Virus record (IMG/VR): IMGVR_UViG_3300031999_000242
Span: 1 to 20,426 of that record
Origin: a virus
Length of the DNA stretch: 20,426 nt
Reading direction: 5' to 3' (one strand)
Below the pieces are notes generated by a model. The model was not told where the DNA came from. It saw only the letters and a program-made list of their open reading frames with translations, and searched no databases. The translations under genes and the position numbers were made by a program. The number at the start of each line of letters is the position of its first letter. The first letter of the stretch is position 1. Positions 5,495 through 20,136 of the stretch are shown piece by piece.

Positions 5495-6754
5495 TTGAAT
5501 CTCGATCTCGTACTGAGTTTTATTCGGTCGCTGCCTCTGACTCCGGACGAGAAGACGTACATCTCGATCCAGATTACGCAAGCGGCAGATCGTATGCCCC
5601 CTCCGCTCAGTGCGGAAGAGGAAAAGGCCATTGCGGACGAGCGTATCGCTCGTGACGCGCGTCTAGCTGCCGAAGCTAGTGCGGATGCTGCGCGTAAAGC
5701 TGCGCTCGATGCGGCGGAAGCGGAAGCCAACAAAGAAGCGTTCGATGTTGCTGCGGAGTCGGCTCTTGCGGTGAAACTCGCTGCGGAAGCAAAGGCTGTT
5801 GCGGACGATGCGGTCGCGGACAAAGCAGAAGCAGTCGCTGATGTTTCGGCGGCTGTTTTCGCGCAAGCGGAAGCTCTCGATCAAGTTACGTCGATTGACG
5901 CTGTGACGCATGCGCAATCCGCAGCCGATGCACAGGCTGCGGCTGATGCTGCCGCGAAGGCTGCTGCGGACGCCAAGAATGCGGCTGATGCGAAGGCCGC
6001 ATCGGATGCTGCGGCTGCGGCTGCTGTTGCTGCTCAAGCTGCTGCGGATGCGGCGGCTGCTGCGGTTGTCGCTCAAGCTGCTGCGGATGCCAAGGCTGCT
6101 GCGGATGCCAAGGCTGCTGCGGATGCCAAGGCCGCTGCGGATGCGCAAGCTGCTGCGGATGCCAAGGCTGCTGCGGACGCCAAGGCTGCGGCGGATGCGC
6201 AAGCTGCGGCCGATGCACAAGTCGCTGCTGATGCTGCTGCCAAGGCCGCAGCGGACGCCAAGGCTGCTTCTGACGCTGCCGCTGCGGCACAGGCTGCCGC
6301 CGATGCTCAAGCTGCCGCCGATGCTAAGGCCGCTGCGGATGCCAAGGTCGCTGCGGATGCCGCGCAAGCTGCTGCTGACGCCAAGGCTGCTGCAGACGCC
6401 GCTGCTGCGCAGGCTGCCGCCGACGCACAAGCTGCTGTCGATGCGAAGGCTGCTGCTGACGCCGCCGCCGTGCAAGCCGCTGCGGATGCCCAAGCTGCTG
6501 CCGATGCCAAGGCTGCCGCTGCTGACGCTGCTGCGCACGCCGCCGCTGACGCCGCCGCTGCACAAGCTGCTGCTGACGCCAAGGCTGCTGCCGATGCACA
6601 AGCTGCCGCTGACGCCGCCGCTGCACAAGCTGCTGCTGACGCCAAGGCTGCGGCTGATGCACAGGCTGCTGCCGATGCCGCTGCTGCCGCTGTTGAAGTC
6701 CCGGTGACGCCGGTAGATGTCCCGGCCGATCCGGCGGTACCGGTGACGCCATAA
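5495..6754 (+). CDS. Alanine-rich hexapeptide-repeat protein, 419 aa
   Basis: The function is unknown. Residues 1-40 form a distinct leader (NLDLVLSFIRSLPLTPDEKTY, then ISIQITQAADRMPPPLS). Residues 41-139 are an Ala/Glu/Lys-rich helix. Residues 140-399 are nearly pure repeats of AAADAK or AAADAQ, and the last 20 residues are a Pro/Val tail (VPVTPVDVPADPAVPVTP). A six-residue period turns about 600 degrees on an alpha helix, so charged or polar positions spread around all sides, which fits a long single helix or filament better than a heptad coiled coil. The composition resembles the helical middle domain of TolA. TTG 5495 is supported by AGGAG at 5484-5488 and by the leader sequence. A virion fibre, spacer or internal role is possible. 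The stop overlaps the next ATG (TAATG). Confidence 0.8.
   Translation: MNLDLVLSFIRSLPLTPDEKTYISIQITQAADRMPPPLSAEEEKAIADERIARDARLAAEASADAARKAALDAAEAEANKEAFDVAAESALAVKLAAEAKAVADDAVADKAEAVADVSAAVFAQAEALDQVTSIDAVTHAQSAADAQAAADAAAKAAADAKNAADAKAASDAAAAAAVAAQAAADAAAAAVVAQAAADAKAAADAKAAADAKAAADAQAAADAKAAADAKAAADAQAAADAQVAADAAAKAAADAKAASDAAAAAQAAADAQAAADAKAAADAKVAADAAQAAADAKAAADAAAAQAAADAQAAVDAKAAADAAAVQAAADAQAAADAKAAAADAAAHAAADAAAAQAAADAKAAADAQAAADAAAAQAAADAKAAADAQAAADAAAAAVEVPVTPVDVPADPAVPVTP
5912..6691 (+). repeat. 18-bp tandem repeat array coding for AAADAK/Q hexapeptides
   Basis: About 780 bases of degenerate 18-bp repeats lie in frame inside the 419-residue gene, roughly 40 or more units with a few offset or partial units. 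Three consecutive units at 6077-6094, 6095-6112 and 6113-6130 are identical (gctgctgcggatgccaag), with another exact copy at 6149-6166. Most other units differ at wobble positions. The homogeneous block in the middle suggests recent unequal exchange or slippage, so array length may vary between isolates. Confidence 0.9.
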
Positions 6755-9287: not shown

Positions 9288-12200
9288 GTGGACTATCCGC
9301 CTCTGAATCCGGGGTACTCGCCGGAGCTACTCTCGCAGGCTGATCGGCTTGCTTCATCTTTCGCGACGAAGCCTCGCGCCCCTGCTGCGCCCCCTCCTCC
9401 GGAGCCATTGCCCGACAACGGGATCTTGACCGACATTGGCCACGGTCTCGCTGGCGGTGTCATGGTCGGTGCGCCGCGTTTAGTAGGGCAGATGCTGAAG
9501 TACCCCGGTGCGCCGGGCGACACGTTGTATGACGCCGGGCAGTCTATGGTCGAGTCGGCCGACCAGCGCGAGAAGGGTAACGATCTGTACCGCACTACAG
9601 GCGCTTGGGGCGCGGGTGCGAACATGTTGGCATCTGGACTGCCAGCGATGGTTGCCGGGCCTGCTGTGGCCGCTATGGGCGCTCCTGCGGCGGCTGTGGC
9701 TGGGGTTGGAGCATTGGCCGGAGCGGCGTTGTTCGGCGGGGGGATGGCGCAGACTCGGTACGAGGAAGAGCGCAAGCTGGGCGCTACGCACGAAGAGGCA
9801 AGCTCTACTGCCGCCAAAGAAGGAATGATTCAGGGTGTTGGGCAGGGTGTAGCCTCGGCCGTTGGCGCTCGGGTGCTGACCGGCGGCGCAGGTGCGCTCG
9901 CTCGCGGCGTGGGCATTGGCGGGGAACACACTGCGCAAGGTGTGCTCAATTCGTTTTTGTCCCCAGCGTTCGCTAGGAAGGTGGCGTTGGGGGCTGCCGA
10001 GAACGCGGCGGTGCAAGTACCTGTGCAGATGGGCGCGGCGGCAGCCTCGGCTTCGTTGGGTAAAGAGCCTAGCGATTCATGGGAAGCTGCGAAGGCGAGC
10101 GTAGCTCCGACGTTGGCGATGGGCGCGTTGATGACACCGTTGATCGGTGGCGGCACGCTGTTGAACAACCATCGCAGAGCGCACATTGCGGATCTGGCGG
10201 TTGCAGCGCGGCCTCCGGAACATTCTAGTGACGCGCTTACGTCGCTGTTGTATGACGGCACGCGCACCAGAGCAATCAGTGAGATCTATAAGGAGATGCG
10301 TCGCGTAGATCCAGCAGCGGCCGACAAATGGCGGAACAACGCTGAAGTTGTCGTGATGCGCGGAGAAGAGTTGCCGCTCGATGTCGGGTTTGATCCGGAT
10401 GCACCGAAGCAACAAGCTCCGGCAGAGGCACCTGCTGCGGCCCCCGTTGAACCGCAGAGGATGCTGCCCCCTCCTGTCTATGCGATGGGGGAGCAACAAG
10501 ATCAGCCAGCGCGTGCGCCGGGGCCGGAGAATTTTTACGGGTTTGATCCGAACGCCGAACGGTGGAAAGCAAGAGACGCGGAAGAGCAGCGTCGTGCCGC
10601 TGCCATGCGCGCGTCTGAAATTCCAGAGGTGCCGTCGAACGCCATCGACGTGTCTGAGATTCCCGGCCAAGAGATCCATCCGCCTGAGTATTATCAGTCG
10701 CGGACAATCAACCTTCGTCCTGCTGAACTTCCTGTGGGCGAAGTGCACGAGCTTCCAGTGGAAGAGCGGACGCTTAGTGGTACGGTAGGCGTGCCCATTA
10801 CGAAGCAGGAACGTGCTACGTGGTTGAAGTCTATGTTGGGTCGCACGGACAACAAGAATACGATCATTGCCGATCTGACGGCGCGTGAACCTGCGGAGCT
10901 TGCGTCGGCGCTGCAGAAGGTGTGGCACGACAAAGGTGGGGATAACGGTCCCAAGTATCTGCAACGTGTGGAACAACTGTACCAACGACTGACCGATTCC
11001 GATATTCGTCAACAGAAAGCCGCCGATGAAACTGCCGGTAAGAATGCCGCCGAAGAAACTCAAGGGGCCGAACCCAAATCAGCCGCCGATGAAACTGGAA
11101 CCAAAAATGCCGTCACTACTGACAAAGTGGCTGAAGAAAAAGGGAATGCCGATGCCGGGCGAAGCGATGGCAAAACTGCGGAAAGCGCGGATGAGCTAGA
11201 TCTTGGCAGGACGATGGGGCTTGAGCAGGGCGGTGAGAAGAAAGTAGTCAGCGCGACGATTCGTGTTGGCGGGCAGGAGTTCGATGGCCCGGTCCACGGC
11301 GCTGCGCTCAACAAGGCCATTGCTGCCGGTGTGCTGCGTAAGAATCCTGCTGGCGGTTGGCTGGTTAAGGAGAACGGTGCATGGCGCAAATTCAGTTCGG
11401 AAAAGGGAGACGACTACGGTCTGTTCAAACTAGACGATGGCTCGACTGTTTCACGCGAGGCAGCGACCAATCTGACCGGCGAGAAGAAGGCCGAGAACAT
11501 GCCGTTCGGCAAAGGGTACAAGGAGACAACTCCGGTACCTCCGAAGGAGCCAACGAAAAAGGAAATTCGTGATGCGGATCGCGCGGCCAAAATTGAGCAG
11601 TCGCGGCTCGCAGCGGAACGCAAAGCGGAGCAGATTCAATCTGCTATACAGCGGCATCGTGAAGAGACCGCCAAGCTACAGGCGCAGGTGCGTGACATCT
11701 TCGCCAACCCTAATCCATCCACGCAGGAGCAAGCCCGTAAGACGGTGCTTGAGGCGGAAATTGCGGCTCGCAATAAACGGGAAGAGCAGGCCGTGCAGAT
11801 GCATACCGAGGCTATCGCCGAAGCCGAGGATGCTGCTCATGGGAATCCTGAAGTCACGCGCGAGAAGAGTGATTGGCGGTTCGCCACGCATGCATGGAAT
11901 AGTCTCGCGGGTATCGGTCGTATGGAAATTGATCGTGAAGGGCGGGGCCAAGCCGCACTTAACGCCTTCGGCGCTGCGCAGAATCTGCTCAATATGGCGG
12001 ACTACGTAACTGCGCGTCTTCTGACGGGCACTGCGACCAAACGGGAAAAGAGCATTTTGTCGGAATCCAACGCATACAAGGGAGTCAGCGCGGAGAATCG
12101 GCGCTCCGCGCAAGTTGCGCTCGACTCGCTCGGCAAGGATGAACTTGCCAAGTACGTAGCGCGAGCAGAGCATTTCTCGAAGTCTATGGAACTCGCGTCG

Positions 12201-15200
12201 GCTATGTCGGCGAAGATCTCCGAACTCACACGACAAGAGAAAGTGAAAGCGGCCAGTGAGACGATCATTGAAATGGCGCATCTGAAGGAAGGTCTAGCCA
12301 TCGTGGATCGTAACGTCGCGGAAGGTAAGACGACGGTGGAGGAAGGGCAGGAACTGAAGCGTTTGATCGCGGCGCAAGTCAAAGACATGATCGACAAGGG
12401 CGTGTACGACCGTGGACTAAACGCTCTGTCCGATAAGGGGATGCGTGAACATCTGGCCGCGAAAGCCACGGCGAAAGATGCGATGGATTACATCGTGCGC
12501 AATCACTCGAATCCAATTGTGCGCATGGTGGCGAAGCTGCTTGGTAGCAGCGATCATTTGTCGGCGCGTGTCGATGTTGTCGAGAATCCTACGTTCGATG
12601 GTGGACGGTACAACACGCGCACCAATACCATCGAGATCGGGCGTGGGGGTCTGAACGCAGTCACGTTGATGCATGAGACTACGCACGCGCTTGTGCACCG
12701 CGCGCTGCATGAGGCGATGCTCGATCAGCACCAAGAAGGGTTGGCAGGGCAGAAGAAGGCCAATGTTGAGGCGATGCACGAGATCAATGCGGTCATGGAG
12801 AAGTTTCGTGACATCGCCGATCTGGACGATCCTTCGCATCGGCTCGCGTTGGAAAGTGCGCATGAGTTCACGGCGGAAGCGCTTAACAATGAGCACATCC
12901 AAGAGATGCTCGGTGGGCGTTCTGGCTTGTGGACTCGGTTCACCAATGCGCTTCGTGGCATGGTGGGGATAGCCCCTAAAAACCAAACAGAATTCGAACA
13001 ATTGCTGAAGGCATCGACTACGTTGTTCGGAGATCCGCGTCAGGACACCATGACGGTGTTCAACCGTAGCCTCACGAGTTTCTTCAAGAGGGATCTCGAT
13101 CCGACTAACCCCACAGACGCGTTAGAAATTCATCGCCGCGCTATGGATGGGGCGTCCGCTGTGTCGGCGAAGTTAATGAAGCAGCTTGGGGAAAAGGACA
13201 TCGGGGCGCGGGTGAAGCAGGAAGCGCTGAAGTTTCTCACGCTCAATCATCAGATGTGGTTGGCAGATCGCATCGGTTCGAAGTTGATCGCGCAGTTTCC
13301 TGAGAATACTGCGGTGCATGAAGCGGTGCGTAGTACGGTGGATTCGATCCGGAGTTGGCGGCGTGCGGTGACGGATCGCAGCGGCCTGTCGGGGCATCTG
13401 GTCAACGGCAAAGACGAATCGCAGGACATGATGCGTTCGTTGCTTCGGCAAGCCGATACTACACCGCAGCAGTTTCTTGAGATGACGAAGATGGCGCGCA
13501 ACGCGAAGTATGTTGGCGTGCATCCGTCTATCAAGACGTTCGCTGAAGCCAAGAAGAACATGCCTAAGCTGACGGAGGAGCAGTTCAACCATCAGTCGGC
13601 GCGAGAGGCAAGGGACACCTACCAGAAGCTGTCGCGGTCGCATCCAGAAGTCATCAAACTGTACGATGCTATTTTGCAGAAGCATCGCATGGACTTTGCG
13701 CGGTACTACGCAACGGCGTTGGAGAACACGCTGCGTCAGGCCGGGCTGCACAAGACTGCAGGGTTCGCAGAGCGCATGAATGAACTCGATCCTATGGCGC
13801 ATCGTGATAATACGCAGGCGATGCAGGAGTCGAAGCTCAATGGGGTCATGCGGTACATGCAAGGCAAGCTGGACGATCTGCACACAAGCGCGAAGCTGGA
13901 AGAACTGAAACAGTTCAATTCGAAGCTCAAAGCGGGCGAGACGCCGCTAACGGAGCTACCGCAGCGGCACACTCCGGAGACGCAAGCACTGCGCGATTCC
14001 ACGCTGACCAAGAGCGCCGTGGACGATCTGCTCGCCACGTACGACAAGCAACGGGCTACACCCTATGTGCACATCGGTCGTTCTGGTGGGTATCACATCG
14101 GGTTCGAGGTAGCGAATACTCCGGGTGCATGGGAGAAGGTCGGCAAGGTTGTCTCGGGGAAACAAGCCGAAGGTGGTTTGGAGCGTGATTGGCACGCCGG
14201 ATTCGATGGCAAGCGTAAGGTGTACATGCGTTTTGGTTCCGCTGCGGAGATGAATGAAGCGAAGAACCGATTGCAGGCGTTGAAGGATGAAGGGCTGTTC
14301 AAGGTGGAAGACACGAAGAACGGCACCACGAAAGAATCTTACTACGACGGCATGGCCATTGACCACGCTAGAGGGCTGGACTCGGCTACGCCTGAGTTCA
14401 TTCGTGTGTTGTCGGAACGGTATAACAACGATCCCAACCTAGATGCGGACGAGCGCGCGATGGTCATCAACACGTTGGTTGATACCTATCGGCAGCAGCT
14501 TCCGGAAACGTCTCCGCTGAAAGCGTCTATGTTCGCGGAGAACACGCCGGGGGCCAGTCAGGACATGCTTCGCACGTTCGGTGATCGCATGACCATGAGC
14601 AATCAGGCGCTGGTCAACGCGCGCTCGGCTCCTCGCATGGCGCAAGCGATCTCGGAACTTCGTCAATCTGTCAGCAAGCTCAATGCCACGGAGGTTGGGG
14701 ACGCGAAACTGCAGTTGGCGCAGTACGCTAAGGAATGGATGGGGCGTGCGCAAGATCTTCAGGTGCCTATCAATTCACCGATTGTGGACACGTTGAAAGG
14801 GACCACGGCAGCGTGGATGTTGGCGATGTCTCCTGCGTACACGATGATGACTTCGTACCAACCGTGGCAGATGACGCTGCCTGCTATCGGTTCGAAGTAC
14901 GGCATGGTGCGCTCCGCGATGACGATGGCGAGCAAGACCGGGGAAGCGATTGGCGTTCTGAAATCGATGCTGGATGTTGGTTGGGGGCAAGAGAAAGGAA
15001 ATAGCTGGTTCGACCGGGCTTCCAGCCTGTCCGACATTCAGATGCGGTTCAAGGAACTGAAGAACCCTAACGGCAGTCCGTTGTTGTCGGGGGAAACGCT
15101 GGGCATGCTCAACGCGCTGCAGTGGTCGGGCATGATGAACTTTGGGCAGACGCAGCAGATATTTCGAATGGACCCTGCCAACAAAGGGGTCACAGCGAAG

Positions 15201-16424
15201 ACGATTCGCATCGCCACGATCATGCCGCACTATGCGGAGATGTTGAACCGGATTGTCACCGCGACCACGGCCTACGAGATGGCGCGCAAGGTCGGCAAGA
15301 TGGGCATCGAGGAAGCTCAACAGTACGCATTGCAGACGGTGACTAATACGGACGGCAATCACTCGCAAGCTAATGTAGCTCGCGCGCTAGGGCGGCGTGG
15401 TATCGCTGGACGGGTGACGCCGTTGTTCGTCGGTTTTGGTCAGTACGACATTCAAATGACGGAGCAGCTTGCTCGCGTCGCGATGGATGCATGGGGCAAT
15501 ACGTTCACGAACAAAGAAGCACGGCAAGCGCAGAAGCAGTTGATGGGAATTGCGACCATGACTTCGTTGATAGCGGGAACATTGGGGCTGCCGCTGGTTG
15601 GGCTGCTCACTGCTGCGGCGAACGCCATTGGATCGTTGACAAGTGACGGCAACGACTCACCTCCAGATTTCCAGCGTGCGTGGCGTCAGCACATGGACGG
15701 AATCTTCGGTGAGAAGGGCGGGGAGATTGTCTCGAAGGGTCTACCGCGCGCGTTCGATTTCGACATGAGTAGCCGCTCCGGGTATCAGGATCTGGTGCCG
15801 TTTACTACGTTCCTGACGGATCGGCGCAAGATGGATGACCGGCTGAAAGACGGTGCGACTACGTTGCTTGGGCCAACGGCCGGAATTGGTATGGGCGTGC
15901 TGCGGGGTGCGGAAGCGTACAGTCGCGGGGACTACGTATCCGCGATCAATGATGCGCTTCCTGCTGGGATTAGAAATTTGGCTAAGGCATATCGGCTGTC
16001 GCAGTATGGGTACGAAACGCAAGGCGGTAATAATGCGATTCCGATCACACCGTCAAGCTGGAACGTATTCATGCAGGCCGGTGGGTTCGTCGGGGGCGCA
16101 CGCGCGGAAGAAAGCGAGCGCACGTTCCAGTTCAACACCAATAACGACCTGCTGCAGCGGAGACAGCAGGAGCTACGCAATCGGTTCTATAGAGCCGTAG
16201 AGCATGGCGATTTTCAAGAAGTGGGCAAGATCATGCAAGATAACGTAAACTTCGCCGTTCAACACCCACAGTTCCACGCTGATGTAGCGGCGGGGCTGGT
16301 GGAAAGAGCGAAGCAACGGGCCGTAGGAGGAATGGCAGGTGGCATGCTGTTGAATCCGCGTCAGCTTCCTTACGCGCAACAGATGTTCCCTGACCTTCGT
16401 CCATACACGCAAAGGCAGCCATGA
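9288..16424 (+). CDS. Giant polyvalent-type virion protein with zinc metallopeptidase motif and LPD38-like C-terminus, 2378 aa
   Basis: This is probably an internal virion protein delivered into the host with the DNA. Visible layout: Pro-rich N-terminus (about 29-45); Gly/Ala-rich hydrophobic stretch (about 112-153); linker with repeated AADET/KNA phrases (about 574-614); small module beginning ATIRVGGQEFDGPVHGAAL (about 655-720); charged coiled coil (about 752-850); zincin-type peptidase (about 1070-1215) with LMHETTHALVH, giving H1129, E1130, H1133 and a likely third ligand at E1193 or E1197; PYVHIGRSGGYHIGFEV module near 1592, resembling the PLxRFG domain of polyvalent proteins; and an LPD38-like region (about 1830-2260) with two hydrophobic stretches (about 1834-1872 and 2086-2116). 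GTG 9288 is the only start in this frame after an upstream stop, with weak GGAAG at 9275-9279. I see no RNA polymerase motifs. Its stop overlaps the next ATG. Confidence 0.85.
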   Translation: MDYPPLNPGYSPELLSQADRLASSFATKPRAPAAPPPPEPLPDNGILTDIGHGLAGGVMVGAPRLVGQMLKYPGAPGDTLYDAGQSMVESADQREKGNDLYRTTGAWGAGANMLASGLPAMVAGPAVAAMGAPAAAVAGVGALAGAALFGGGMAQTRYEEERKLGATHEEASSTAAKEGMIQGVGQGVASAVGARVLTGGAGALARGVGIGGEHTAQGVLNSFLSPAFARKVALGAAENAAVQVPVQMGAAAASASLGKEPSDSWEAAKASVAPTLAMGALMTPLIGGGTLLNNHRRAHIADLAVAARPPEHSSDALTSLLYDGTRTRAISEIYKEMRRVDPAAADKWRNNAEVVVMRGEELPLDVGFDPDAPKQQAPAEAPAAAPVEPQRMLPPPVYAMGEQQDQPARAPGPENFYGFDPNAERWKARDAEEQRRAAAMRASEIPEVPSNAIDVSEIPGQEIHPPEYYQSRTINLRPAELPVGEVHELPVEERTLSGTVGVPITKQERATWLKSMLGRTDNKNTIIADLTAREPAELASALQKVWHDKGGDNGPKYLQRVEQLYQRLTDSDIRQQKAADETAGKNAAEETQGAEPKSAADETGTKNAVTTDKVAEEKGNADAGRSDGKTAESADELDLGRTMGLEQGGEKKVVSATIRVGGQEFDGPVHGAALNKAIAAGVLRKNPAGGWLVKENGAWRKFSSEKGDDYGLFKLDDGSTVSREAATNLTGEKKAENMPFGKGYKETTPVPPKEPTKKEIRDADRAAKIEQSRLAAERKAEQIQSAIQRHREETAKLQAQVRDIFANPNPSTQEQARKTVLEAEIAARNKREEQAVQMHTEAIAEAEDAAHGNPEVTREKSDWRFATHAWNSLAGIGRMEIDREGRGQAALNAFGAAQNLLNMADYVTARLLTGTATKREKSILSESNAYKGVSAENRRSAQVALDSLGKDELAKYVARAEHFSKSMELASAMSAKISELTRQEKVKAASETIIEMAHLKEGLAIVDRNVAEGKTTVEEGQELKRLIAAQVKDMIDKGVYDRGLNALSDKGMREHLAAKATAKDAMDYIVRNHSNPIVRMVAKLLGSSDHLSARVDVVENPTFDGGRYNTRTNTIEIGRGGLNAVTLMHETTHALVHRALHEAMLDQHQEGLAGQKKANVEAMHEINAVMEKFRDIADLDDPSHRLALESAHEFTAEALNNEHIQEMLGGRSGLWTRFTNALRGMVGIAPKNQTEFEQLLKASTTLFGDPRQDTMTVFNRSLTSFFKRDLDPTNPTDALEIHRRAMDGASAVSAKLMKQLGEKDIGARVKQEALKFLTLNHQMWLADRIGSKLIAQFPENTAVHEAVRSTVDSIRSWRRAVTDRSGLSGHLVNGKDESQDMMRSLLRQADTTPQQFLEMTKMARNAKYVGVHPSIKTFAEAKKNMPKLTEEQFNHQSAREARDTYQKLSRSHPEVIKLYDAILQKHRMDFARYYATALENTLRQAGLHKTAGFAERMNELDPMAHRDNTQAMQESKLNGVMRYMQGKLDDLHTSAKLEELKQFNSKLKAGETPLTELPQRHTPETQALRDSTLTKSAVDDLLATYDKQRATPYVHIGRSGGYHIGFEVANTPGAWEKVGKVVSGKQAEGGLERDWHAGFDGKRKVYMRFGSAAEMNEAKNRLQALKDEGLFKVEDTKNGTTKESYYDGMAIDHARGLDSATPEFIRVLSERYNNDPNLDADERAMVINTLVDTYRQQLPETSPLKASMFAENTPGASQDMLRTFGDRMTMSNQALVNARSAPRMAQAISELRQSVSKLNATEVGDAKLQLAQYAKEWMGRAQDLQVPINSPIVDTLKGTTAAWMLAMSPAYTMMTSYQPWQMTLPAIGSKYGMVRSAMTMASKTGEAIGVLKSMLDVGWGQEKGNSWFDRASSLSDIQMRFKELKNPNGSPLLSGETLGMLNALQWSGMMNFGQTQQIFRMDPANKGVTAKTIRIATIMPHYAEMLNRIVTATTAYEMARKVGKMGIEEAQQYALQTVTNTDGNHSQANVARALGRRGIAGRVTPLFVGFGQYDIQMTEQLARVAMDAWGNTFTNKEARQAQKQLMGIATMTSLIAGTLGLPLVGLLTAAANAIGSLTSDGNDSPPDFQRAWRQHMDGIFGEKGGEIVSKGLPRAFDFDMSSRSGYQDLVPFTTFLTDRRKMDDRLKDGATTLLGPTAGIGMGVLRGAEAYSRGDYVSAINDALPAGIRNLAKAYRLSQYGYETQGGNNAIPITPSSWNVFMQAGGFVGGARAEESERTFQFNTNNDLLQRRQQELRNRFYRAVEHGDFQEVGKIMQDNVNFAVQHPQFHADVAAGLVERAKQRAVGGMAGGMLLNPRQLPYAQQMFPDLRPYTQRQP

Positions 16425-16801
16425 CAGATGATGACCGCCGGTTGATGGACGTTCAATGGAAGGCTTCAGTGGATCAGAAACTTGCAGACGGTGGGGAGAA
16501 GTTCGACCAGTTGCATGCAGGGCAAACAACACTCCTCAGTCGTATGGATGAACAGGACGTTGCGCTAAAAGACATAGGAGACACGTTAGATTCGCATATT
16601 GTTACGACGAAAAAACTCGCTGACAGTGTGGCTCCGTTGATTAAGGCGGTTGACACAATGGAAAGTGGGGTACGGGTGCTCGGGGCCATCGGCACTGGTG
16701 TCTCATGGACCGGGAAGATTCTTAGACGCACCGTTGTTTGGCTCGCGCCATTTGGCGCGTTGGTGGCTACGCTGTACCACTTTTTCCATCCCACAAAATG
16801 A
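16421..16801 (+). CDS. Putative lysis accessory membrane protein (XhlA-like layout), 126 aa
   Basis: This is a candidate holin or holin partner. The first 80 residues are soluble and helical with heptad-like spacing (LHAGQTTLLSRMDEQ, VALKDIGDTLDSHIV), followed by LGAIGTGVSWTGKILRR, then one membrane segment at about residues 104-122 (TVVWLAPFGALVATLYHFF) and a short tail HPTK. A cytosolic coiled coil ending in one C-terminal membrane helix is the layout of XhlA-type lysis proteins, known from PBSX to work with a holin. ATG 16421 overlaps the giant gene's stop (ATGA), and its own stop overlaps the lysozyme start (ATGA), so the three are translationally coupled. An inner-membrane spanin is less likely because those carry an N-terminal membrane helix. 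Confidence 0.75.
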   Translation: MTDDDRRLMDVQWKASVDQKLADGGEKFDQLHAGQTTLLSRMDEQDVALKDIGDTLDSHIVTTKKLADSVAPLIKAVDTMESGVRVLGAIGTGVSWTGKILRRTVVWLAPFGALVATLYHFFHPTK

Positions 16802-17955
16802 ACTTAACTCAAAAAGCGGTAGCGTTCTTTATCGCGAAGAATTGGACGCCGGAGCAGGCGTCAGGGGTTGTTGCGAATCTCGTAGCCGAGAGCGGGCTAC
16901 GCCCCGATGCTGTGGGCGACGGTGGTGAGGCGTATGGCACCGCGCAGTGGCACGGAGATAGGCAAGCAAAGTTTGCCGAGGTCATGGGCGAACCAATGCG
17001 CGGTTCGTCGTTGGAAAGTCAACTAGCGTTTGTCCATTGGGAACTTCAGAACACGGAGAAGCGAGCCGGTGAAGCGCTCGCTACCTGCACGACGCCAGCC
17101 GATGCCGGAGCTTGTGTATCCAAACTGTACGAGCGTCCCGCAGATCGCGAAGGCGAAGCCAGTAAAAGGGCTGCGTTAGCGCAACGGATTTTCGATGCGT
17201 TCGGCGGGCAACAGAGTCCGCAAGTGAGCGAAACACCGCAAGTGAGCGAAGCACCGCAAGTACAACCACAACCCAAAGGAGCAAAGATGGGAGCGATCCT
17301 CGTACCGCTGTTGATGAGCGTAGTCGGGAAGTTTCTCAATCCGACAGTCGCGCAAAATGTCACTTCAATCGTTACCAAGGATGGTGGACAGTCCACGGCT
17401 GCGCAGAATCTGCTGCAGATGTTGCTGGGCGCAGTGGCGAGTTCTGCGGGGGTGACACCCGCCGCGATGAAAGCCGATGACAGTGTGGCGATTCAGGCTG
17501 TCGCTGCGGTGCAATCAAACGCGGAGAAACTACGCGCTGTAGAAGATGCCGCCGCCGCGCATCTCAATGCGGTATTGCCGTTCGTTCAGCAACTCGCTGT
17601 GCTCGATCAGATGCGTTACGACGCGGAGAACAAGGGCAAGCAAGTCGTGTCTACCATCGCCATAGCGGAGCATGCGGCCGGGTTGTGGGACATGACGCGG
17701 ACGGTGGTGCTCATCGCGGGCTGTACGATGATGGCGATCTCGCTGGGCCTGCTGGCGGCGATTCTGTATCAGTCAGTGAGCAAAGGCGCTATCGACCCCG
17801 GTCTGCTAGGGATGACAGGGCCGATCCTGATGGCGACTCTCGCCGCGTGGGCAGCGATCATCGCGTACCGGTTCGATGGCTCGAAGGAATCGCATGCTGC
17901 GGCTGAAGCGCAGCGAGCTACGGAAAAATATCGCGAAGACACAGGGAAAGCATAA
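16798..17955 (+). CDS. Lysozyme fused to a two-membrane-segment holin-like domain, 385 aa
   Basis: This looks like an endolysin joined to a holin-like domain. Residues about 1-135 match the phage tail lysozyme type of peptidoglycan hydrolase: NWTPEQASGVVANLVAESGL, with E31 as the likely catalytic acid, then GGEAYGTAQWHGDRQAKF. A linker (residues 140-160) holds two PQVSET/A repeats. From residue 164 the protein is Ala-rich and helical, with membrane segments at about 302-324 and 337-357, and ends in a charged tail. ATG 16798 overlaps the previous stop (ATGA); a TTG start at 16738 would lie inside that gene's membrane-coding part. An in-frame ATG at 17287 (M164), preceded by AAAGGAG, could start a separate 222-residue holin-like product. 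No signal peptide is seen, so the lysozyme would depend on membrane permeabilisation or on its own anchor. Confidence 0.85.
   Translation: MNLTQKAVAFFIAKNWTPEQASGVVANLVAESGLRPDAVGDGGEAYGTAQWHGDRQAKFAEVMGEPMRGSSLESQLAFVHWELQNTEKRAGEALATCTTPADAGACVSKLYERPADREGEASKRAALAQRIFDAFGGQQSPQVSETPQVSEAPQVQPQPKGAKMGAILVPLLMSVVGKFLNPTVAQNVTSIVTKDGGQSTAAQNLLQMLLGAVASSAGVTPAAMKADDSVAIQAVAAVQSNAEKLRAVEDAAAAHLNAVLPFVQQLAVLDQMRYDAENKGKQVVSTIAIAEHAAGLWDMTRTVVLIAGCTMMAISLGLLAAILYQSVSKGAIDPGLLGMTGPILMATLAAWAAIIAYRFDGSKESHAAAEAQRATEKYREDTGKA
17218..17262 (+). repeat. Two and a half 18-bp repeats in the lysozyme-membrane linker
   Basis: ccgcaagtgagcgaaaca (17218-17235) and ccgcaagtgagcgaagca (17236-17253) differ at one base, and a third partial unit begins ccgcaagta (17254-17262). 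They encode PQVSET, PQVSEA, PQV in the linker between the lysozyme and the membrane domain. Short Pro/Ser/Glu repeats suit a flexible tether. Confidence 0.85.
17275..17289 (+). promoter_or_regulatory. Internal ribosome binding site and in-frame ATG at the domain boundary
   Basis: AAAGGAG at 17275-17281 is followed after 5 bases by ATG 17287, in frame with the lysozyme fusion (codon 164). The encoded downstream protein starts MGAILVPLLMSVVGKF and contains both membrane segments but no lysozyme. Both the match to the binding-site consensus and the spacing are as good as those of the annotated genes here. Confidence 0.65.
17287..17955 (+). CDS. Putative free holin-like protein from the internal start, 222 aa
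   Basis: This is a proposed second product of the lysozyme fusion gene, read in the same frame from ATG 17287. It would be 222 residues: an N-terminal amphipathic or weakly hydrophobic helix (MGAILVPLLMSVVGKFL), a long Ala/Gln/Val-rich helical middle, membrane segments at about residues 139-161 and 174-194 of this product, and a charged C-terminal helix. That order (helical body, C-terminal membrane hairpin, charged tail) resembles holins such as the GTA-type three-helix family, without clear sequence identity. The strong binding site is direct evidence; actual expression and function are inference. If it is real, the cassette makes XhlA-like, lysozyme fusion and holin from about 1.5 kb. Confidence 0.5.
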   Translation: MGAILVPLLMSVVGKFLNPTVAQNVTSIVTKDGGQSTAAQNLLQMLLGAVASSAGVTPAAMKADDSVAIQAVAAVQSNAEKLRAVEDAAAAHLNAVLPFVQQLAVLDQMRYDAENKGKQVVSTIAIAEHAAGLWDMTRTVVLIAGCTMMAISLGLLAAILYQSVSKGAIDPGLLGMTGPILMATLAAWAAIIAYRFDGSKESHAAAEAQRATEKYREDTGKA

Positions 17956-18793: not shown

Positions 18794-19219
18794 ATGACAC
18801 AGGCAATGTGCACCAGTTTTAAGAAGGAGCTATTTACAGCGACGCATAACTTTGCGGCGTCCGGAGGGCACGCCTTTAAGTTTGCTCTGTACACATCGTC
18901 TGCGACACTGGACGCTGCCACAACTGTGTACTCAACGTCTAACGAAGTCACGGGCACAGCGTACGTCGCAGGAGGGTTCGCGCTAACCAATGTGGACCCT
19001 AGCATATCCGGTACTGTTGCTATGGTGTCCTTCTCTGCGAACCCAACGTGGAGTGGAGCTACCTTTTCAGCTAGTCAGGCGCTTATCTATAATACGTCGG
19101 CCAGCAATAAGGCCGTAGCAGTGGTAGACTTTGGGGGCACACAAACCGTCACTTCCGGAACTTTCGTTGTAACCTTTCCGGCGGTGACATCCACCACAGC
19201 CCTGTTGAGGCTGGTGTAA
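18794..19219 (+). CDS. Small virion protein, paralogue 1, 141 aa
   Basis: This is a beta-rich structural protein of a type repeated 470 bases downstream. It reads MTQAMCTSFKKELFTATHNF, FKFALYTSSATLDAATTVYSTSNEV, GTAYVAGGFALTNVDP, WSGATFSASQALIYNTSASN, then a C-terminal LLRLV. The shared phrases with the gene at 19693 are CTSFK, FK.ALY, AATTVYS..NEV and the closing LLR. Proteins beginning CTSFK...LYTSSA are common small structural proteins of podoviruses, sometimes called tail or head proteins, with no proven role. Codons look more AT-rich than those of its paralogue. ATG 18794 has only a weak AGAG upstream and follows the previous stop by 4 bases, so coupling is likely. Confidence 0.78.
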   Translation: MTQAMCTSFKKELFTATHNFAASGGHAFKFALYTSSATLDAATTVYSTSNEVTGTAYVAGGFALTNVDPSISGTVAMVSFSANPTWSGATFSASQALIYNTSASNKAVAVVDFGGTQTVTSGTFVVTFPAVTSTTALLRLV

Positions 19220-19692: not shown

Positions 19693-20136
19693 ATGGCGAA
19701 TGTCGCCGCAATCTGCACGTCGTTCAAAGTCGAGATACTGAACGGGCTGCACGCACTTGGAACGTCGGTGGTTCGCGGCGGCACGGGTGCGGACACGTTC
19801 AAGATCGCGCTCTACGCACCGGCCGGTTCTCTCGGTGCGGCTACCACAGTGTACTCAGCCACCAACGAAGTATCTTCGGCGGGATACACCGCCGCAGGCA
19901 CGGCGATTGTTTTCACCGCACCGGCATCAACCGGTACCATCGCGTACACCACACCGAACGCCAACGTGACGTGGACAGGTGTCACTTTCACCACGGACTG
20001 CGCGTTCATTCACAACGTCACGCAGACTAGGGCGGTCGCGGTCTACACGTTCTCTTCGCAAACCGTCACGGCGGGCAACTTTACGCTCACCATGCCGACG
20101 AACGATTCGAGCACGGGATTGCTTCGGATCGCGTGA
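19693..20136 (+). CDS. Small virion protein, paralogue 2, 147 aa
   Basis: This is the second copy of the small beta-rich structural protein. Key phrases are NVAAICTSFKVEILNGLHAL, GADTFKIALYAPAGSLGAATTVYSATNEV, GYTAAGTAIVFTAP, NANVTWTGVTFTTDCAFIHN and LTMPTNDSSTGLLRIA. It aligns along its whole length with the gene at 18794 (141 residues), with an insertion of a few residues near GTSVVRGGTG. The sequence is GC-rich and codons match the rest of the window. ATG 19693 has AGGAG at 19681-19685 after a gap of 7 bases. The stop TGA (20134-20136) overlaps the next ATG (TGATG). The exact role, for example capsid surface or tail attachment, is not known. Confidence 0.8.
   Translation: MANVAAICTSFKVEILNGLHALGTSVVRGGTGADTFKIALYAPAGSLGAATTVYSATNEVSSAGYTAAGTAIVFTAPASTGTIAYTTPNANVTWTGVTFTTDCAFIHNVTQTRAVAVYTFSSQTVTAGNFTLTMPTNDSSTGLLRIA

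Follow-up and report, generated by a model that had tools for sequence, protein, structure and literature searches.

The window analyzed here is an entire virus record of 20,426 bases. We identified in it a single gene encoding a lysozyme, a linker and a holin-like membrane domain, with an internal Shine-Dalgarno (SD) sequence and an in-frame start codon where the membrane domain begins. The features of the locus are as follows.

16421..16801, plus strand: upstream gene whose 126-aa product has a coiled coil and a membrane segment at its C-terminus; the gene overlaps the start of the fusion gene
16798..17955, plus strand: full-length fusion gene (lysozyme, linker, holin-like membrane domain), 385 aa, stop codon within the coordinates
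16810..17202, plus strand: PF18013 (Phage_lysozyme2) enzyme domain, residues 5-135, profile match E=6.9e-30
17203..17286, plus strand: linker with an 18-bp tandem repeat (17218-17261), sequence not kept among homologues
17275..17281, plus strand: internal SD AAAGGAG, position kept in homologues
17287..17289, plus strand: internal in-frame ATG start codon, aligning with Met1 of TeaA, a stand-alone holin
17287..17955, plus strand: predicted internal product, a holin-like protein of 222 aa (from sequence, profile comparison and AlphaFold2)
17299..17328, plus strand: short uncharged N-terminal hydrophobic helix, short-form residues 5-14 (AlphaFold2, pLDDT about 74-81)
17692..17784, plus strand: helix 1 of a C-terminal membrane hairpin, short-form residues 136-166 (AlphaFold2)
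17797..17874, plus strand: helix 2 of the same hairpin, short-form residues 171-196 (AlphaFold2)

The fusion gene runs from ATG at 16798 to TAA at 17955, as read directly from the sequence, and its ATG and the upstream stop overlap in ATGA. No SD is present at this start (anti-SD energy +3.5). The enzyme domain scores 104.5 bits against PF18013 (curated cut-off 28.2) and covers positions 4-140 of the 140 in the profile. The fused enzyme has no N-terminal hydrophobic segment that could act as a SAR-type signal-anchor helix.

The second in-frame start lies 489 nt from the first, directly after the repeat linker, and ATG 17287 is the first codon of the membrane domain. A preliminary description of this DNA, made from the sequence alone, had placed AAAGGAG at 17275-17281, five nucleotides before that ATG, and had predicted products of 385 and 222 residues. 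Both statements hold, the first exactly: the spacer is CAAAG (17282-17286) and the region reads CCC AAA GGA GCA AAG ATG GGA. The site was also said to be among the best ribosome binding sites in the window, and this is correct, as only 15 of the 642 window ATGs on both strands have an anti-SD duplex energy equal to or better than its -7.9 kcal/mol. The RNA structure around the site is not unusual (z=+1.2). The further claim that there is no coding reason for AAAGGAG fails, since AAA-GGA encodes the ordinary residues KG.

Scanning viral contigs with single-protein patterns, from P0001, P0002 or the giant protein encoded upstream, yielded no relatives. Searches of annotated phages by tblastn with the membrane domain found no fused example, and plasmids likewise gave none. 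Relatives were reached through the major capsid protein, followed by searches of the whole records so found. We identified 22 further fusions of this type, some in environmental phages and others in the genomes of betaproteobacteria, making 23 with the window, in which three unrelated classes of enzyme (PF18013, GH104-type and GH19-type) precede one related membrane domain. Two records, L066 and L064, carry a PF18013 fusion at the same place, after the giant protein; in L060 and L062 the fusion is at the same place but has a GH104-type enzyme, which matches the phrog_90 endolysin (2e-27 and 2e-13, respectively). Profile scans with the membrane domain identified L071 and L072 (GH104-like by similarity) as well as L073 and L087 (GH19-like), the L073 enzyme matching phrog_181 at 2.2e-49, and a scan with the PF18013 fusions identified L090, L091 and L095. 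A first genome scan with a three-sequence profile found nothing. However, a profile of the full-length GH104 fusions retrieved ten fusions (L170-L174, L176-L179 and L181) from bacterial genomes, mostly of Burkholderiales and Rhodocyclaceae, and a sample comprising 399 genomes of that order yielded L254. Tail-spike and tail-fibre genes are among the neighbours of L172, L174 and L177, which fits prophages.

Several observations concern the surroundings of these genes. The protein of 16421-16801 is 37% identical to the product of the same gene in L066 (E=3.6e-26) and matched no named family; by inference, it is likely another protein of the lysis cassette. The small coiled-coil proteins encoded upstream are hardly conserved in sequence across relatives, and their membrane segment may lie near the N-terminus (L060, L064) or the C-terminus (window, L066, L072). 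The giant protein (2378 aa, window 9288-16424) is likely a virion protein. Its C-terminal part has distant relatives in 55-63 kb phages that are annotated PLxRFG or 'DarB-like antirestriction', and the 'antirestriction' label seems doubtful here. Shortly past the capsid gene, 5495-6754 encodes a long Ala/Asp/Lys/Gln repeat protein (AAADAKAAADAQ...); the underlying DNA is an imperfect 18/36-bp repeat array (6019-6687). The genes at 18794-19219 and 19693-20136 encode a pair of similar proteins, each about 145 aa long and of like make-up (CTSFK...), and L060, L064, L065 and L066 have counterparts arranged in the same order. Four relatives of the window phage (L058, L059, L063 and L065) have neither a fusion nor an endolysin of the searched families after the giant protein, and we infer from these negative searches that their lysis genes must sit elsewhere or be of another kind. 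In addition, a set of GH104-type enzymes mainly from rhizobial genomes (L241-L248) has one C-terminal membrane segment, and these may be a second kind of membrane-tethered endolysin.

A start codon is found at the junction in every one of the 23 fusions (20 ATG, 3 GTG). An AGGA, GGAG or GAGG core occurs within 17 nt upstream of it in 19 of the 23, compared with 46 of 506 other in-frame start codons in the same genes (Fisher 2.3e-15). After removal of membrane domains more than 70% identical, the counts are 15/18 and 37/381 (Fisher 4.5e-12). Permutation of the last 24 linker codons gives a combined p=1.6e-12, or 5.8e-9 in the non-redundant set. The SD is found in all three codon phases and is encoded by differing residues (KGA, AEG, GET, SGD, PGD, QE, KE, SEV), and thus does not reflect one conserved peptide motif. 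The signal is not uniform: L095 is essentially without an SD (-3.0), and in L178, L179 and L181 it is weak or distant. The junction was assigned by the domain boundary, which involves some choice; however, the alignment of TeaA's first Met to that column is independent of it.

With the residues held fixed, synonymous shuffles reveal no extra SD signal, either in the window (p=0.21) or across the first 22 fusions (Fisher p=0.90). The shuffles reproduce the SD about equally because K-E, Q-E and similar residues nearly dictate it. This is a second correction to the preliminary description: codon choice adds nothing significant once the amino acids are fixed. The comparison with homologues that it proposed is positive, since the ribosome binding site and start codon are kept while the linker residues and the enzyme vary. 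The evidence is therefore positional and comparative, resting on position, recurrence and module swapping and not on synonymous bias. On these grounds it is very likely that the internal SD and start are not a chance site, while their use in the fusion genes is inferred, without expression or protein data.

Relatives with two separate genes, a possibility raised in the same description, were indeed found as adjacent pairs. In Xanthomonas phage PBR31 a lysozyme gene is followed by a phrog_1544 gene with a TAATG overlap and GGAGGGGGG directly ahead. In VP58.5, VP882 and Vibrio 1.024 the holin-type gene begins 2-15 nt past the preceding gene, which mostly encodes an enzyme. Among the genome loci L257-L263, reading by eye places a separate copy behind a peptidase-like or lysozyme-like gene in L258, L259 and L261-L263. 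Stand-alone genes carry an SD at the matching position, either overlapping the end of the upstream gene or between the genes.

The pair L254 and L174, two prophages, shows exchange of the enzyme. Their membrane domains are identical at 162 of 178 residues (91%), whereas their enzymes are unrelated (GH19-like and GH104-like, respectively). The L254 enzyme is 63% identical (123/196) to that of L087, yet the membrane domains of these two are merely about 25% identical. The L254 and L174 DNAs become alike at CCAC..GGAGG (the SD), roughly 20 nt ahead of the start codon, indicating that the ribosome binding site and initiator travel with the holin module. The two differ in the start codon itself, ATG against GTG.

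Two alternative explanations of the junction site can be weighed against these data. In the first, the site is a coincidence at the protein level: linker residues such as Q-E, K-E or E-G, followed by a structurally favoured Met, would yield SD-like DNA without function. Synonymous shuffles with the given residues do reproduce the SD, and Q/K-E occurs about three residues ahead of the start in about half of the fusions. However, the SD is elsewhere encoded by KGA, AEG, GET, SGD, PGD or SEV and in all three phases, stand-alone genes carry it at the matching position, and every junction codon that is not Met is GTG. We consider this explanation very unlikely. In the second, the SD and start are unused leftovers of a two-gene stage and the tethered enzyme is the sole product. 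Ancestry as separate genes is real, a leftover site would be expected soon after fusion, and there is no excess selection in synonymous codon choice. However, the PF18013 fusions of the group to which the window belongs (window, L066, L064 and L091) appear to be old, with membrane domains 24-36% identical to that of the window and linkers almost wholly diverged, and each nevertheless has an SD with ATG or GTG. The difference between ATG and GTG in L254 and L174 also indicates that initiator function is kept, and not the residue. A fossil site is therefore a very improbable reading as well.

The C-terminal domain of the window alone does not match any Pfam or PHROG family, and its relation to holins consequently runs through its relatives as a group. 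Among the fusions, phrog_1544 matches L064 (5.6e-7), L071 (1.6e-12), L072 (1.9e-8) and L091 (1.6e-4); it also matches gp57 of Vibrio phage VP58.5 (9e-47) and orf38 of PBR31 (4e-28). PBR31 orf38 is above the cut-off for PF11351 (GTA_holin_3TM), and VP58.5 gp57 is 41% identical to TeaA of ICP1. TeaA, the one member for which such activity is published, collapses the proton motive force, is triggered by dinitrophenol and itself matches GTA_holin_3TM (PMC7182436). In profile-profile comparison, the group that includes the window matches the TeaA/VP58.5/VP882 group with 96% probability (E=2.8e-9), and the group from bacterial genomes matches it at E=8.6e-19. Additionally, an HMM of the genome group matches TeaA at 7.4e-18, with profile position 1 falling on TeaA Met1, and in an alignment that includes 25 linker residues most junction starts fall in the column that holds TeaA's first Met or in a neighbouring one. 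The profiles thus show that, as a group, the membrane domains of the fusions are related to stand-alone holins including ICP1 TeaA; holin activity is inferred. A fusion of lysozyme and membrane domain together with a free holin-like protein, as first proposed, is supported, and its holin part is strengthened by the profile homology to TeaA.

Structure prediction is consistent in part with this assignment. The two C-terminal membrane helices found in TeaA-type, phrog_1544 and PF11351 holins are present, although the AlphaFold2 model of the C-terminal domain is of moderate quality (pLDDT 74, pTM 0.46). As a candidate for the third, N-terminal membrane helix of those holins, the model has only the short hydrophobic helix of residues 5-14, which is perhaps too short to span a membrane. 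A Foldseek search of this model against viral models returned nothing significant; rank 2 was a 'Holin of 3TMs' (E 0.4) and rank 4 was VHML ORF20 (E 1.4). Positive charges average 0.8 in the hairpin loop and 1.6 and 2.2 in its flanks, which weakly favours a topology with the enzyme and the tail inside.

A role in the virion is another possibility: the PF18013 lysozyme with its membrane helices would then serve in ejection or in the tail, digesting the cell wall when infection begins. Annotations as tail or tape-measure proteins attach to PF18013 and to the top PHROG matches, and the gene comes after the giant protein, probably an internal virion protein. However, homologues bear endolysin-type GH104 and GH19 enzymes, and the membrane domain is kin to a tested holin and lies behind endolysin genes when separate. 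In the longer relatives no other member of the searched endolysin families was found, either: in the two longest with a fusion (66-68 kb) the fusion enzyme is the only phrog_90 match, and in the L064 and L066 records the fusion is the only PF18013 match. Searches of relatives for GH108 and GH19 found no other enzyme, but these are weak negatives without a positive control. A virion role is very unlikely.

Finally, two products could be made with the short form acting as an antiholin or membrane scaffold and the holin encoded by another gene, for instance 16421-16801. A small coiled-coil membrane protein is encoded directly upstream in the window and in several relatives, and the PBR31 annotation names orf38 a putative spanin and assigns the holin to another protein, of 62 aa. 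However, the relative that has been tested, TeaA, is itself the holin, and when its antiholin ArrA was compared with the upstream genes no similarity was found. This arrangement is unlikely.

We favour the reading that the gene is a fused two-gene lysis operon that has retained its internal start and would produce a membrane-tethered endolysin and a free holin (likely, probability roughly 0.78, with expression and timing inferred). In this reading the ancestor had an endolysin gene and an adjacent TeaA-type holin gene behind it. Loss of the endolysin stop codon, which alone would suffice, would have joined them in frame, and the holin gene would have retained its own ribosome binding site and start codon through the fusion. 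The sequence data show the fusion, the SD and start at the junction (23 examples), the holin homology with alignment of the Met, the two-gene relatives and the enzyme swap. From one gene, two proteins would be made: an endolysin tethered by the linker to a holin domain, and a free holin (222 aa in the window). No obvious signal sequence is found in the PF18013 and GH104 enzymes of the fusions, and an enzyme without one should remain in the cytoplasm. We infer that it waits at the cytoplasmic face of the membrane, that long and short chains mix in holin rafts, and that the enzyme would be at the rim once holes open. Timing may be set by the long chain, acting as a weaker or antiholin-like partner: with a folded enzyme in front of its short N-terminal helix, it is possibly a poorer pore former, which would slow the clock. 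In lambda S the long form also delays lysis, by different means. That lysis is timed by the proportion of tethered enzyme to pore former, as first proposed, is still an inference without expression or timing data.

A bolder reading is that endolysin-holin single polypeptides form a recurrent class in which the long chain is both tethered enzyme and antiholin-like, the ratio of the two starts sets the lysis clock, and the enzyme half is interchangeable since recombination falls at the internal ribosome binding site. The balance of evidence tips slightly against this wider claim.

Phages normally make holin and endolysin as separate proteins; in current models the freed enzyme diffuses through the hole. 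If the favoured reading is correct, the enzyme would arrive already attached to the pore former, as a fused endolysin-holin made alongside free holin. One gene would link both dosages, providing a simple system for relating the holin to enzyme ratio to lysis time, and two point mutations would separate the products. Annotation pipelines would probably report the long protein alone.

The domain resembles the TeaA, phrog_1544 and PF11351 holins in its profile relationship, length class, start Met, C-terminal hairpin and ...GSS..S.KD tail. However, those are encoded by separate genes, and that of the window is fused behind an endolysin. Lambda S, which had been offered as a precedent, likewise has two in-frame starts in one lysis gene and a common C-terminus. 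Its products differ by two residues. The near-identical products of such closely spaced starts are not matched here, as the window products differ by a whole enzyme and linker of 163 residues. Endolysins made as two polypeptides, such as CTP1L and Ms6 LysA, likewise have an internal SD and in-frame start where two domains meet, and a short form without the N-terminal part. However, their short product is soluble and belongs to the enzyme itself, typically as its cell-wall-binding domain, whereas that of the window is a membrane, holin-like protein. Internal-start endolysins are established in phages of Gram-positive bacteria and mycobacteria (PMC9430671, PMC4777826, PMC3111421, PMC12203907), and a survey of them excluded Gram-negative phage endolysins as unlikely to have internal starts (PMC9430671). 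If the start described here is used, such lysis genes are not confined to those phages, as several fusions occur in Burkholderiales and Rhodocyclaceae. A fusion of the TpeE family in Clostridium sporogenes also unites holin and endolysin in one polypeptide, but with the holin first and with an unrelated one-helix holin (PMC9527704), and the relevant sections of that paper mention no internal start. Our search of the open-access literature found no report of a gene in which an endolysin is fused ahead of a holin and an internal start is conserved. Internal-start endolysins and a holin-endolysin fusion are already known, and what is new, within that literature, is the order of endolysin before holin with a conserved internal start between them.
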